Below, piece after piece: positions 8,070-64,000 of a DNA stretch of 64,000 nucleotides. The stretch is taken from NCBI RefSeq assembly GCF_014876185.1, contig NZ_JADALJ010000001.1, positions 2,833,501-2,897,500 on the forward strand. Direction: 5' to 3'. The stretch is from Rufibacter sp. LB8. GTDB lineage: Bacteria; Bacteroidota; Bacteroidia; Cytophagales; Hymenobacteraceae. Numbering within the stretch: position 1 is the first letter of the stretch; every line of letters starts with the position of its first letter. The notes under the pieces were generated by a model. That model ran no database searches, had not been told where the DNA came from, and saw only the letters and a program-made list of their open reading frames with translations. The position numbers were made by a program, and so were the translations under genes.

Positions 8070-8100
8070 GTGCTTATCTAGTTAATGGAGAAATGCGGTT

Positions 8101-8142
8101 TCCGTTTTCGGGCTCATTTCCAGGAATGAGCCCGAAAACGGA
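8101..8142. repeat. HP1 palindromic repeat
   Basis: Nearly perfect copy with halves TCCGTTTTCGGGCTCATTT and AATGAGCCCGAAAACGGA. Lies just after the terminator of the TPR gene. Confidence 0.88.
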
Positions 8143-8165
8143 ATGCCAATAGGCAAATTCCTAAT

Positions 8166-8193
8166 GTAGAGACGCAACACCTTGCGTCTTTAC
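8166..8193. repeat. HP2-type GTAG palindrome (variant)
   Basis: Arms GTAGAGACGCAA and TTGCGTCTTTAC around a four-base centre. It begins with the GTAG tetranucleotide known from REP elements. With 8267-8294 it forms an inverted pair. Confidence 0.7.
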
Positions 8194-8266
8194 ACTTCTG
8201 CTTTCTCAGCTTGAAATTAAACAGGTTCAGGATTATAACAGACGTTTATAGCAGAAGAGGGAATGC

Positions 8267-8294
8267 GTGGAGACGCAAGGTATTGCGTCTCTAC
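8267..8294. repeat. HP2-type palindrome (variant, inverted relative to 8166)
   Basis: Arms GTGGAGACGCAA and TTGCGTCTCTAC. Read on the reverse strand it matches the 8166 copy, including the asymmetric centre. The pair is separated by 73 bases. Confidence 0.7.
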
Positions 8295-8445
8295 AAAAAA
8301 CAGCACCACAATCTTCAAATGCAGTGTTAGCGCTTTCATCAACTTAACCCTATTGGTCGCCTGCAGATTCTTTTGATCAAGCCTTGCTCAGTGCAAAATA
8401 ATATTTTCTTCCTAGAGCGCCTGGTAATTTATCAGCGCAGGAATT

Positions 8446-8487
8446 CCTGTTTTCGGGCTCATTTCTGGAATTGAGCCCGAAAACAGG
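8446..8487. repeat. HP1 palindromic repeat
   Basis: Halves CCTGTTTTCGGGCTCATTT and AATTGAGCCCGAAAACAGG. It ends 4 bases beyond the rluD stop codon. The outer CCTG/CAGG change is matched in both arms, so pairing is kept. Confidence 0.87.
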
Positions 8488-8491
8488 ATGG

Positions 8492-17167: not shown

Positions 17168-17211
17168 TTCCGTTTTCGGGCTCGTTTCTGGAAATGAGCC
17201 CGAAAACGGAA
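17168..17211. repeat. HP1 palindromic repeat
   Basis: Almost perfect copy, halves TTCCGTTTTCGGGCTCGTTT and AAATGAGCCCGAAAACGGAA. It lies 11 bases downstream of the CBS gene stop on the reverse strand. Confidence 0.88.
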
Positions 17212-25592: not shown

Positions 25593-25632
25593 TATAGTTT
25601 CATAAGTTGATTCTTAAAAAAGACACATACAC

Positions 25633-25680
25633 TTTCCCGTTTTCGGCTTCATTTCTGGAAATGAAGCCGAAAACGGGAAA
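25633..25680. repeat. HP1 palindromic repeat (perfect copy)
   Basis: A 23-base arm pairs perfectly with its partner around a TG centre. Outer ends are TTTCCCG and CGGGAAA; the middle is GGCTTCATTTC and GAAATGAAGCC. It ends 2 bases from the EnvC-like gene stop. This is the best preserved copy in the window. Confidence 0.93.
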
Positions 25681-25682
25681 TT

Positions 25683-34271: not shown

Positions 34272-34317
34272 TTTCTATTTTTGGGCTCATTTCTGGAAAT
34301 GCGCCCAAAAATAGAAA
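34272..34317. repeat. HP1 palindromic repeat
   Basis: Halves TTTCTATTTTTGGGCTCATT and AATGCGCCCAAAAATAGAAA. Both arms carry matching changes (CTATTTTT/AAAAATAG), which argues for selection or conversion to keep the pairing. Confidence 0.85.
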
Positions 34318-40753: not shown

Positions 40754-40782
40754 GTAGAGACCAGGCACTGCTTTGTCTCTAC
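40754..40782. repeat. HP2 GTAG palindrome
   Basis: Arms GTAGAGACCAGGCA and TGCTTTGTCTCTAC around one base, with one or two mismatches. It begins with GTAG and ends with CTAC. Confidence 0.75.
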
Positions 40783-59653: not shown

Positions 59654-62077
59654 TTAAACGGTTTCGCGTTTACGCTTGAACCCGTAGAACACCGCTCCGG
59701 CCAAACCAGCCAGCAACAGCACCGAGGAAATCATGGAAACGGTGTTGCCCAAGGTGTATTCCTCTGGCGTGAACCGAAACTCAATGGTATGCTGACCGGC
59801 GGGAACGTTCATGGCGCGCAGGATGTAGTTGGCTCGGAAGTGGTCGGCGGGTTGGCCGTCTATGAAAGCTTGCCAGCCGTCTTTGTAGTAAATCTCAGAG
59901 AAGACCACCAGACCAGCCTGCGCAGCGTTAGCAGTATATTTCAAGTAGTTGGGTTGATACTCTACCAGTTTGATGCTGGAACCTTCTGAAGGATAATTCT
60001 GAACCTTTACATTCGGGAATTTCGTGACATCCACAATGGCTTCGGCGGCGGGTTCAAAGCTTTTAAGGGCGGCCAGTTCCTCGTCGGGGGTTCTCACGGG
60101 CTGCACTTCGGTTACAAACCAAGCATTGCCCAGGTTGCCGGGGATCATCTGCACCGGCTGCTGCTCTTGGCCCGTGATGGCGTATTTGGCGTTGAGCATG
60201 TTGAGTACATTCATGTTGCCAGGCGCCAGGTGCTGCTCAATTACGTCTTGGTAGCGGCGCAGTTTGGCGCCATGGTACCCGCCAATAGACTTGTGGAAGT
60301 AAGACGTACGCGCATCATTAAACGGATTGGCCACGTTGTACACGCGGTAACTCAGGTCTTTGTCCTGCAGAATGGCTTGATCTGCAGGAGTAGGCTGGAA
60401 GTAGCTGCTGGTGTAGTCTTTCTGGAAATCACCGTTGTTGAGGTAGCGCTTGTTCACGGTCCAGAGGTCAATCAGAATCAACAGACCCACCGCAGCCGTG
60501 GCCATGAACGACGATAATTTCTGCTTGGAATACAGGTACAGCGCCACGGCAGCCAGTAAGATGAAGATTAACGAGCGGAAGGCATCGCCGCGCAACATGG
60601 CTTCTCTGTCTGCTCTAATCTCGTTGACGGGATACTGGTACTGAAGCAATTGTTCATCCACGGCGGCGGTGTAGTCAAACGTACCAGCCAACAAGACAAA
60701 CACCAGGCAGAGTCCGCCGGTCACGCCCAGGGCAATCAAGAGTTTCTTCTGAAGGTTGATGATAGGTTCGTTCTGCAGCACGCGGCACAAAGCCAGAATA
60801 GCCAGCAGCACCATAGACACCTGCGCAATCACCAGCGCCATGCTCACCGCCCTAAACTTGTTGTAGCCCGGGAACACGTCAAACATAAAGTAATTGAAGG
60901 CCTCAAAATTCTTACCCCAGCTCAACAGCAAAGACAAAACGGTGGCGCTCACTAGCCAAATCCAGGTGCGGCGGGGCATCACCATAATTCCCAGCACAAA
61001 CAGAAAACAAATGATAGCGCCCATGTACACGGGGCCGCTGGTACCGGGCTGGTCGCCCCAGTAATACGGCATGGTGGCCGTGTCTAACTGACCGGCCGGC
61101 ATACCAGCTTGTTGCAACGCTTTATAGGTTTCAGAGCCTTTTCCCAGCGGGCCCTGGCTGGCGCCGCCGTAGAAGTTGGGAATCAAGAGCGTCATGCTTT
61201 CGCCCACGCCGTAGCTCCACTGGAACGCATACTCGCGGTCAAGTCCGGTGCCTATTTTGGCTTGCGACTCAGCCGTTTGGGTTAGTTCAGAGGCTCCCCT
61301 AATGGAATAGTTACCGTACTCAGCTGTGGTATAGATTCGTCCAAAGCTTACGCCCGCGGCCAAAGCGGCACCAACGGCCAATAACACAGAACGCTTAAAG
61401 AATTCGGGCAGACGGCCTTCTTTGGACCAGGCCACCAATTCCACAATCCCGAAAATCAGCACCATCAACAGCAGGTAATACGTAATCTGCATGTGGTTGG
61501 TGCGCATGTGCATGGTGAGCCCAAACGCGAAAAGCGCCGCGCCCAGCCACATGTTTTTGCGGTAGGCGTACAACAAACCCGCTAGTACCAGCGGCAGATA
61601 GGCAATGGCCAAAGATTTGGTGTTGTGCCCCGCCTCTAGAATGATAAAGTTGTAGGAAACGAAGCTATAGGCCACCGCGCCCACTACCGCCAGCATCGGC
61701 CGCAGGCCTAACACTAAGAACAGCACATAGGCACAAACCAGCGTGATGAACACATTGGAGGCCACCAAGGGCAAACCGGCGGTAAATAAATCATGCACAA
61801 ACCGGAACAAGTCGCCGGAGAACTGCACGCTGATTAAGTAGGCGGGCATGCCACTGAACATAGAATTGGTCCAAAGGGCTTCTTCACCGGTGGCTTTGCG
61901 ATAATCGGCTATTTCTTTGGCGCCGCCCTGGAACTGCATCACATCGTTCTGCATCAGGGTTTTGCCGTCAAAGAATACCGGCGAGAAATACGCTACTACC
62001 AGCAGCACAAAAAAGAGGAGCACTAGCAGGTGCGGCAACACGTGGCGGTTGAAATCGAGTTTAGAAGAAGTGGCCAT
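59654..62077 (-). CDS. YfhO-family membrane protein
   Basis: 807 residues from the ATG at 62077. About 12 to 14 hydrophobic helices fill the chain, with large extracytoplasmic loops and a beta-rich C-terminal domain (NYLKYTANAAQAGLVVFSE, then FRFTPEEYTLGNTVSM). YfhO proteins are membrane glycosyltransferase-like (GT-C fold) proteins, linked to lipoteichoic acid glycosylation in Firmicutes; the role in Bacteroidetes is unknown. The ATG overlaps nothing upstream. A terminator for the DUF4834 gene lies just ahead. Confidence 0.88.
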   Translation of the reverse strand: MATSSKLDFNRHVLPHLLVLLFFVLLVVAYFSPVFFDGKTLMQNDVMQFQGGAKEIADYRKATGEEALWTNSMFSGMPAYLISVQFSGDLFRFVHDLFTAGLPLVASNVFITLVCAYVLFLVLGLRPMLAVVGAVAYSFVSYNFIILEAGHNTKSLAIAYLPLVLAGLLYAYRKNMWLGAALFAFGLTMHMRTNHMQITYYLLLMVLIFGIVELVAWSKEGRLPEFFKRSVLLAVGAALAAGVSFGRIYTTAEYGNYSIRGASELTQTAESQAKIGTGLDREYAFQWSYGVGESMTLLIPNFYGGASQGPLGKGSETYKALQQAGMPAGQLDTATMPYYWGDQPGTSGPVYMGAIICFLFVLGIMVMPRRTWIWLVSATVLSLLLSWGKNFEAFNYFMFDVFPGYNKFRAVSMALVIAQVSMVLLAILALCRVLQNEPIINLQKKLLIALGVTGGLCLVFVLLAGTFDYTAAVDEQLLQYQYPVNEIRADREAMLRGDAFRSLIFILLAAVALYLYSKQKLSSFMATAAVGLLILIDLWTVNKRYLNNGDFQKDYTSSYFQPTPADQAILQDKDLSYRVYNVANPFNDARTSYFHKSIGGYHGAKLRRYQDVIEQHLAPGNMNVLNMLNAKYAITGQEQQPVQMIPGNLGNAWFVTEVQPVRTPDEELAALKSFEPAAEAIVDVTKFPNVKVQNYPSEGSSIKLVEYQPNYLKYTANAAQAGLVVFSEIYYKDGWQAFIDGQPADHFRANYILRAMNVPAGQHTIEFRFTPEEYTLGNTVSMISSVLLLAGLAGAVFYGFKRKRETV

Positions 62078-62096
62078 GATGGGATTTGCTTGCAAT

Positions 62097-62126
62097 AAAA
62101 AGCCCGATGCTGCGGGCACCGGGCTT
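62097..62126 (-). terminator. Intrinsic terminator after DUF4834
   Basis: AAGCCCGGTGCC on the reverse strand pairs with GCATCGGGCTT, followed by TTTTATTG. It lies about 15 bases after the DUF4834 stop and before yfhO. Confidence 0.8.
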
Positions 62127-62140
62127 GAAAGATACTAGGT

Positions 62141-62434
62141 TTATTTCACTTCTTCATACTCCACATACTCGCCACCGGGGAAGTCCTTGCGCTGCCGCTG
62201 TTCCTCAGGCACGTAAGCCACCTTCACCTTGCCTTTGGGCGCTCTGTTTGCTTGGCTCTGAAACGGTGGGGCTTGCCGCCCGAACGGTGGTGCCTGGCCC
62301 CTGCCCTGCTGCGCGAACTGCTGCGCTTTGCGCATCTGTTTCTGTACAAACGTCTTGAGCAGGTATTTCATCACGTACGGCATGATGAACCGCAGCGCGA
62401 AGAGAATGGCTATGATTATAAAAAAGGTCTTCAA
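62141..62434 (-). CDS. DUF4834 small membrane protein
   Basis: 97 residues from a TTG start. One N-terminal hydrophobic helix (TFFIIIAILFALRFIMPYV) is followed by a basic, glutamine-rich tail, PPFGRQAPPF repeats and a C-terminal acidic end. DUF4834 is a small Bacteroidetes family of unknown function. The TTG overlaps the FkbM stop (TTGA), and the family starts MKTF or similar, which supports it. It is inferred to be anchored in the inner membrane. Confidence 0.75.
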   Translation of the reverse strand: MKTFFIIIAILFALRFIMPYVMKYLLKTFVQKQMRKAQQFAQQGRGQAPPFGRQAPPFQSQANRAPKGKVKVAYVPEEQRQRKDFPGGEYVEYEEVK

Positions 62435-63186
62435 GTCTGAGTTGGGTTTGGTTTAAAGTAAAAATCGCCGCCCTGGTACTGGTCAATTTCTGCGGGGGGG
62501 CAAGGAGATAACGTCTGGCCGCCCTGTAACTTGTACACGCCGTAGCCTAAATTGGTAAGAATAGCCACCACCTTCTGGCGGTTCTCCTGCCCGTTGAGCT
62601 CTGTCTGAATTAACGGTTTGTGGCGTTTTATAGTTTCCTGCAGGTGCGCAAAGACCTGGTGTTCATACCCTTCCACGTCACACTTTATGAAATCCAGCTG
62701 CTCCAGGTCCTGGAACAGTTCATCGGGAATTCGCATTTCTACCTGGTAGGTCTGGGCGTATTTTTCCTGCGCGCTGCTGGCAATTTTGGTCATGCCGTGG
62801 TGCACCAGCCCATCGCGCAGGGGCGTGCCCATCTCAATGGTGGTGTTCTCGCCGCCCAGCGCAAACGGTAGCAGGGTGAGGTTAGCCACGCCACTGGCCC
62901 GCACATTGTCGGTCCAAATCTTCCCGAACAACGGCACCGGCTCCACCGCCAGCACCTGTCCTGTTGGCCCGGCCAACCGAGACAAAAACGTGGAATAATA
63001 GCCCAAGTTCGCGCCAATGTCCAGGCACGTGGACCCCGGTTTAATGATTTTTCGCAAGAAAAACAGCTCTGGGTACTTCTCCCGCCCCCGGCCCGTGCCA
63101 ATCATGATGATGTACAGACGGCTCACCAGACGCAGATAGCTCTCAAACCCCAGCGCCTTGACCAATAATTTACGAAGTACTTTCAC
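62431..63186 (-). CDS. FkbM-family methyltransferase
   Basis: 251 residues. The SAM-binding motif is GSTCLDIGANLGYYSTFLSR near residue 52, followed by VLAVEPVP and the FIKCDVEGYEHQVF block near 160. FkbM methyltransferases O-methylate sugars or polyketides. The substrate is unknown. The short N-terminal region of about 45 residues is partly hydrophobic. It overlaps DUF4834 by 4 bases, so they are co-translated. A degenerate HP1 copy lies upstream. Confidence 0.9.
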   Translation of the reverse strand: MKVLRKLLVKALGFESYLRLVSRLYIIMIGTGRGREKYPELFFLRKIIKPGSTCLDIGANLGYYSTFLSRLAGPTGQVLAVEPVPLFGKIWTDNVRASGVANLTLLPFALGGENTTIEMGTPLRDGLVHHGMTKIASSAQEKYAQTYQVEMRIPDELFQDLEQLDFIKCDVEGYEHQVFAHLQETIKRHKPLIQTELNGQENRQKVVAILTNLGYGVYKLQGGQTLSPCPPAEIDQYQGGDFYFKPNPTQT

Positions 63187-63223
63187 GCGGCAAAGTTCAG
63201 GAATTAGGTGGGAGAAACCAAAA

Positions 63224-63270
63224 GCGGGTGTTTTTGGGTGGGTATGAAGAGTGGAGGCCGAAAACGGGAA
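63224..63270. repeat. Degenerate HP1 copy
   Basis: GGTGTTTTTGGGTG on the left and GAGGCCGAAAACGGGAAAT on the right; only the right half is well preserved. Confidence 0.5.
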
Positions 63271-63294
63271 ATTCTGATAAAGAAGGCAATGCGT

Positions 63295-63323
63295 GTAGAG
63301 ACAAGGCAGTGCCTTGTCTCTAC
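63295..63323. repeat. HP2 GTAG palindrome upstream of the RAYT gene
   Basis: Arms GTAGAGACAAGGCA and TGCCTTGTCTCTAC match perfectly around a single G. AATGCGT lies just upstream. It ends 55 bases before the RAYT start. Confidence 0.85.
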
Positions 63324-63378
63324 GTGTTCCAGATAATCATATCAGAACAAAAATTCTGGAGCTACTGTATCTCCAAAA

Positions 63379-63942
63379 ATGGAAGATGCAGAGAGATTCC
63401 TGAACAAATACCGTGTTCCTTCTGCCCGTTTGCAGGACTGGGACTATGGCTGGAATGCGGCCTATTTTGTCACGCTCTGTACCAAAAACCGGGAACATTT
63501 TTTTGGTGAAATTTCAGACAACCGAATGCACTTGTCAGAGATAGGAATTTTGGCAAAAAGCTTCTGGAATGAAATACCGGTTCATTTCCCTTTTGTTGAA
63601 GTAGACGCATTTGTGGTCATGCCCAACCATGTGCATGGCATTATAATCATAGACAAGAAGGAATCTGAAACACCTGTAGAGACAAGGCACTGCCTTGTCT
63701 CTACGCAGGCCAGGAACGCTATTGGCAAAAGTAGATTCCAGAACCAAGGCACCAACACGCTGTCTTCAATTATTGGGTCATACAAATCTGCGGTTACCAA
63801 ACAGGCCAGAAAGATTCATGCTGATTTTTCGTGGCAAGCCAGGTTTCATGACCATATCATCAGAGACAAGAATTCCTTCCAGCATATTTCAGAGTATATT
63901 CTCCACAACCCTGAGACTTGGGAGAAAGACCAGTTTTATTGA
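63379..63942 (+). CDS. REP-associated tyrosine transposase (RAYT), Y1 family
   Basis: 187 residues. The Y1 transposase motifs are the His-x-His pair in MPNHVHGIII (H84, H86) and the C-terminal ARFHDHIIRDKNSFQHISEY with the likely nucleophile Y173 in YILHNPETW. RAYT proteins cut and move short palindromic REP elements as single strands. The gene is flanked by HP2 palindromes at 63295 and 63982, and a third copy (63676-63704) lies inside the gene, coding VETRHCLVST in frame. It appears intact. It could be a chromosomally domesticated copy, since no paired subterminal ends were seen. Confidence 0.88.
   Translation: MEDAERFLNKYRVPSARLQDWDYGWNAAYFVTLCTKNREHFFGEISDNRMHLSEIGILAKSFWNEIPVHFPFVEVDAFVVMPNHVHGIIIIDKKESETPVETRHCLVSTQARNAIGKSRFQNQGTNTLSSIIGSYKSAVTKQARKIHADFSWQARFHDHIIRDKNSFQHISEYILHNPETWEKDQFY
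63676..63704. repeat. HP2 GTAG palindrome inside the RAYT gene
   Basis: Perfect palindrome with arms GTAGAGACAAGGCA and TGCCTTGTCTCTAC around C. It is the exact reverse complement of the copy at 63295 and encodes residues 100-109. Confidence 0.85.
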
Positions 63943-63981
63943 ATTCGGGTGCATTCGAGGAGAAATGAATCAATTTCTGTC

Positions 63982-64000
63982 GTAGAGACCAGGCAGTGCC
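63982..64000. repeat. HP2 palindrome, cut by the window end
   Basis: GTAGAGACCAGGCAGTGCC is visible; the rest lies outside the window. It follows the RAYT stop by 39 bases in the same orientation as the upstream copy. Confidence 0.7.

Follow-up and report, generated by a model that had tools for sequence, protein, structure and literature searches.

The window, a stretch of 64,000 nucleotides from Rufibacter sp. LB8, ends in a RAYT (TnpA-REP) gene that is flanked by HP2 palindromes and carries a further copy in its own reading frame. The features of this locus are the following.

63295..63323, no strand: upstream HP2 palindrome, a double-foot REP of the form GTAG...CTAC whose 14-bp arms enclose a single central base, G
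63379..63942, + strand: RAYT / TnpA-REP gene, an intact open reading frame of 187 aa (stop included)
63625..63636, + strand: HuH motif NHVH, residues 83-86, whose two histidines (H84, H86) are the same in all 29 proteins of the alignment
63676..63704, no strand: inner HP2 palindrome, GTAG...CTAC, in frame, with centre C, coding for VETRHCLVST (residues 100-109)
63676..63729, + strand: predicted disordered loop (residues 100-117, pLDDT <50 in the AlphaFold model) that contains the palindrome-coded peptide
63895..63897, + strand: candidate catalytic tyrosine Y173 (YILHNP), invariant in the 29 aligned proteins, its catalytic role assigned by homology
63982..64000, no strand: downstream HP2 palindrome, as far as the window reaches; the whole copy runs to 64010

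The 187-aa protein was matched by the profile NF047646 (REP_Tyr_transpos) at 62.4 bits (E 4e-17; curated cut-off 80) and by Pfam Y1_Tnp at 19.5 bits (curated cut-off 23), and no other profile matched it up to E 1. A sequence search of the PDB returned the REP-bound TnpA-REP structure 4er8 (E 0.005) and one unrelated-looking chain (E 0.012). When the AlphaFold model of the protein (mean pLDDT 81.0, alignment of 29 proteins) was used in a structure search, the top matches by E-value were IS200/IS605-type transposases, and 4er8 followed at rank 10 (TM-score 0.55/0.61, rmsd 3.2). Judged by its motifs and its predicted model, the gene product is an HuH protein with a single candidate catalytic tyrosine in a Y1 transposase fold. 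It shares this fold, and a REP-flanked gene, with E. coli TnpA-REP (RAYT group 2, the 4er8 protein), but identity in the structural alignment is 19%, and the 165-residue E. coli chain, to judge from this alignment, lacks the loop insert.

RAYTs of subclass 2.4 (RAYT group 4) have the consensus motifs NH[IFV]H, WQ and YIxNNP, double-foot REPs of the form GT[AG]G ... C[TC]AC and a median length of 194 aa (Quentin et al., 2018, Table 1; PMC6006769). The window gene is alike in its NHVH and WQ motifs, its inner REP, its flanking double-foot REPs (the GT[AG]G ... C[TC]AC form is present in the upstream, inner and downstream copies) and its length of 187 aa, but its Y motif reads YILHNP. By these sequence characters, the window RAYT probably belongs with the group 4 / subclass 2.4 TnpA-REPs, its Y motif departing from the consensus at one position.

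The upstream and inner palindromes are exact reverse complements of each other (29/29); as each has a single unpaired base at its centre, this amounts to no more than a difference in that base, G versus C. The downstream copy, which is whole in the genome (G000 C1:2897482-2897510), differs in one arm base. The peptide encoded by the inner copy lies between H86 and Y173. A preliminary description of this DNA had reported HP2 copies upstream and downstream of the gene and a perfect inner reverse-complement copy that encodes VETRHCLVST without breaking the frame; both statements are borne out by the 14-bp arms, the match at all 29 positions and the intact frame from 63379 to 63942. The span that it gave, 63295-64000, stops short within the third copy.

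Allowing up to 3 mismatches, the HP2 pattern gave 3 matches in the window (one more, away from the RAYT gene, at 40754-40782) and none in each of 100 shuffles of the window. The whole genome has 82 such places, and the reversed control gave 0; the copies flanking the RAYT gene are thus REPs repeated in the genome. A chance palindrome was ruled out by the window shuffles together with the synonymous-codon shuffles of homologues given below. The context of 63 of the 82 places was read, the remaining 19 being outside the count: 18 lie inside open reading frames of at least 100 aa, one of which is the RAYT gene, and a Pfam scan of the 17 distinct other reading frames gave 0 matches at E 0.01. Of the 63 places, the inner RAYT copy alone thus falls in a gene whose domain is recognised; on this count, the idea that HP2 is common inside genes of this genome was rejected. 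No Rfam element was found at gathering score in 62000-64000.

Of the 63 HP2 places read, 60 sit in a longer mosaic repeat, recognised by a 16-mer in the 200-nt flanks that recurs at another place, and exactly the three places at the RAYT gene (63295-64010) share no flank 16-mer with others. Within the mosaic, five HP2 pairs 149-159 nt apart form REPIN-like doublets (G000 C1:932083, 2333073, 2494757, 2701370 and 4361123). HP2 copy number across the genus does not cleanly track the presence of a close RAYT orthologue: the exact pattern was found 34, 9, 1 and 0 times in the four genomes that have such an orthologue, compared to 0-5 times in the other 12, and one genome without a close orthologue at E 1e-45 (G014) has 41 HP2 places at 3 mismatches.

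Homologues were searched with six peptide patterns, none drawn from the palindrome. Together with the window gene and its four orthologues in the genus and family, the 61 loci obtained make 66, of which 57 code for an intact protein; the other nine (L039, L044, L053, L055, L066, L067, L068, L072, L074) were dropped for lack of a stop before the end of the DNA, an early stop or lack of a recognised motif. A REP-like palindrome (arm of at least 11, or arm of at least 9 sharing 12 nt with the gene's own flank) was present in the linker loop of 38 of the 57. Palindromes with arms of at least 12 occurred there in 30 genes, whereas 20 synonymous-codon shuffles gave 1 on average and 3 at most; 3 such palindromes lay before the linker and 0 after it. 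Nine of ten further loci of the family also had an inner palindrome (L177 in a stop-containing gene), and the tenth, L171, has a decayed remnant in which the residues have changed too. In L167, one pair of the inner palindrome is broken.

Inner palindromes tend to match the REPs of their own locus. For this comparison we used the 39 genes with linker arms of at least 10 (relative to the 38 above, they include L027, L034, L057 and L073, and lack L023, L047 and L058) and flanks of up to about 1.5 kb a side. The longest linker palindrome shared at least 12 nt with its own flanks in 19 genes, compared to a mean of 2.0 and a maximum of 8 over 10000 permutations of the loci. The palindromes are read in the two stop-free frames (20 and 9 genes) and never in the frame with a TAG, with 10 left unassigned. 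At a single site, L037, L038 and L040 carry three distinct cores that differ in both arms; the inner copy of L038 is identical to its own upstream copy (28/28 nt), and one inner copy of L040 to a downstream copy (20/20 nt).

Presence of the palindrome varies. Among 34 homologues with flanking REPs, 12 have no inner copy, by which an obligatory role of the inner copy in a RAYT gene was rejected, and 16 homologues carry an inner copy and lack a REP within 300 nt. On a quick tree of the 57 proteins with open forks (loop left out), presence and absence require 10 changes (shuffled mean 16.1), and palindrome type, assigned by eye, requires 19 among 38 genes. The close relatives L047 and L071 differ by the gain or loss of a clean 60-nt in-frame block, present in L047 and absent in L071. 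An 18-nt palindrome (arms of 9) lies within this block, and both genes keep an open frame.

In-frame REP insertions are already known in subclass 2.4 and were considered to be probably of little impact (Quentin et al., 2018; PMC6006769). What is added here is their recurrence, the match to the gene's own REPs, the presence/absence pair and codon-level conservation, the last of which does not figure in the passages of that paper that describe the insertions. Palindromic repeats in frame in functional genes have also been described more widely, as GTAG/CGTC REPs inside many genes and, cited in the same article, as Rickettsia palindromic elements (Di Nocera et al., 2013; PMC3733652); the hosts named there are varied (DNA repair and others), whereas here the host is a transposase gene whose insert matches its own flanking REP. 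The suggestion of the preliminary description that the inner copy may be a past insertion retained as coding sequence gains support from the homologues with and without a copy, from the L047/L071 block and from the published insertions of the same kind (PMC6006769). We consider it almost certain that the inner palindrome arose as a tolerated insertion.

Some palindromes extend beyond the GTAG foot, with arms of up to 29 bp, either inside the gene (L015, L017, L024, L028, L051) or beside it (L091, L174), which makes the surrounding target symmetric too. REP-like palindromes were also seen elsewhere in the gene family, in an N-terminal loop (L019, L032), at the C-terminus (L052) and in a second loop before FAW/FDW (L163, L165 and probably L160), L163 having palindromes in both loops.

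Where the inner palindrome is kept, its DNA is more conserved than the encoded residues require. Between the window gene and the orthologue of G001, 22 of 38 fourfold sites differ, and the palindrome is the same at 29/29 positions as reverse complement. For the four orthologues in the genus, codons with a conserved residue were identical in 5 of 7 cases inside the palindrome and in 15 of 84 outside. The corresponding counts of same-residue codons were 10/10 versus 44/126 in five Runella orthologues (three from named species), a set chosen after three identical copies had been seen, and 8/8 versus 12/97 in a set of eight orthologues, seven of which share the 28 letters. The eight-way set omits L171 (decayed), L174, L175, L178 and L179 (other palindrome types) and L176 and L177 (same 28 letters, a conservative omission); Runella lineage B was left out for too little divergence. 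Among L153, L155, L167, L172 and L173, which were added later, four keep all 28 letters.

In a broader comparison, 43 usable genes gave 164 eligible pairs, from which 15 pairs that use each gene once were taken; L152, L154 and L156 (duplicates of L045, L042 and L050), L157, L158, L159, L177, L032 and L051 were omitted. Same-residue codons were identical in 108 of 116 cases inside the palindrome and in 1059 of 1865 outside, with the same direction in 15/15 pairs, codons being taken as independent. Some of the 164 pairs run the opposite way, for example L029/L153 (3/7 inside, 0.49 outside), where the palindrome types differ. By these codon comparisons, palindrome DNA in related genes is kept better than the peptide demands. 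The preliminary description had proposed an alignment of homologues and had named the same residues without palindromic DNA as evidence against its reading. The alignment shows a palindrome that is variably present and conserved as DNA where kept, and in the orthologues compared the same residues without the palindromic DNA were not encountered.

Conservation of this kind could come from copying or from selection. In the window's own genus there are possible donor copies, so the case for selection rests on the relatives and not on the window. The inner copy was perfect in all five Runella genomes tested. In Runella sp. CRIBMP (G201, L045) and Runella defluvii (G202, L050) it is the sole place within 3 mismatches in genome sequences that may be incomplete; G200 and G205 have one other copy each, at the 3' end of the gene, with 2 and 1 changes, and G206 has four places. 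As G201 and G202 yielded no donor, the perfect palindrome cannot be upheld there by conversion from other copies. Perfection of a sole copy favours selection on the DNA or RNA, whatever the reader of the hairpin may be.

The inner copy might nevertheless be without function, if REPs land near RAYT genes, only landings in a disordered loop and an open frame survive, and the likeness among copies comes from re-insertion or conversion from other REPs. Such passive tolerance is nearest to the reading of Quentin et al. (2018; PMC6006769). It would account for the near confinement of inserts to the linker (30 versus 3 and 0), the sole use of stop-free frames, the matches to own flanks in 19 of 39 genes, the identity of the L038 and L040 inner copies with a flanking copy of their own and the 12 of 34 REP-flanked genes that manage without one. 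The Runella genomes speak against it, with no other copy in G201 and G202, a differing one in G200 and G205 and yet a perfect inner palindrome in all five, and we regard it as possible but rather unlikely. Selection might instead act on the transcript alone, the hairpin being kept for an effect on stability, translation pausing or processing that needs no RAYT binding. The RNA of the inner copy (63665-63715) does fold at -24.9 kcal/mol, compared to a shuffled mean of -12.4 (z -5.0), but a generic hairpin would not require the match to the locus's own REP type. Unpaired positions are also not mainly G-U (8 G-T versus 23 others in 35 genes), no clear signal of an RNA-only constraint through G-U pairs, and this explanation appears improbable. 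Template switching within the hairpin at replication could keep the arms complementary with no need of selection, and the symmetric arms past the REP foot in the seven loci listed above do suggest hairpin-templated growth. It predicts joint drift of both arms, however, and seven of eight orthologues hold the same 28 letters; we consider it very improbable as the cause of conservation.

The explanation that we prefer, at slightly better than even chance, is a tolerated in-frame REP insertion that was later kept as a recognition or self-targeting site. According to the model, the loop that joins the HuH histidines to the following helix would admit an insert, as it is predicted to be disordered and away from the active site. 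A third double-foot REP copy would have entered this flexible loop in frame, and would then have been kept as the enzyme, or a hairpin-reading factor, came to use it in the gene's single-stranded DNA or mRNA. Its simplest role would be in self-targeting, by which the enzyme would dampen its own expression or activity. Evidence that weighs against this explanation comes from the 12 of 34 REP-flanked homologues without an inner copy, the 16 with an inner copy and no nearby REP, the decayed copy of L171 and the broken pair of L167.

The substrates of the published RAYTs are REP hairpins in single-stranded form (PMC8266576). Binding and cleavage of such REPs were demonstrated for the E. coli and S. 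maltophilia enzymes, and cleavage for the Marinomonas enzyme; the GTAG foot serves binding in the E. coli enzyme (group 2) and mainly cleavage in the S. maltophilia enzyme (group 3) (PMC8266576). The statement of the preliminary description that known RAYTs recognise GTAG fits these group 2 and 3 enzymes; "group 4" is not mentioned in the text of that article. The literature searched, which covered few subscription papers, contained neither binding, cleavage or expression data on RAYT group 4 / subclass 2.4 nor a published function for an inner REP copy. By analogy with the characterized enzymes, we infer that the RAYT may recognise its inner copy and thereby regulate itself. The constraint at the nucleotide level makes autoregulation plausible, and the REP-flanked homologues without an inner copy indicate that it is not obligatory. 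We tentatively propose, as somewhat less than an even chance, that selection keeps the inner REP as a cis-acting element through which the enzyme limits its own activity, via single-stranded DNA or hairpin-bearing mRNA.

If this is true, reading of the cis-acting element would explain why palindromes in the loop keep their DNA letters even without another genomic copy. This bears on the role of RAYTs in their hosts and on what restrains them. Conservation at the DNA level, including in genomes with a sole copy, makes a function of inner REPs testable, where the published view is that they may have little impact.

Two further observations may be noted. A single contig (JAFGJM-type record JAIFMG010000008.1) has two RAYT copies, L018 and L068, about 10 kb apart; the C-terminal part of one is broken, and a AGGGCATGCCCT palindrome is found in both. 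In the window, long hairpins of a second family (TTTTCGGGCTCATTTC..., with arms of 21-25 bp) lie at 8100-8143, 8445-8488, 17168-17211, 25631-25682 and 34272-34317, and two shorter hairpins with an HP2-like foot (GTAGAGACGCAA type) at 8165-8194 and 8267-8294.
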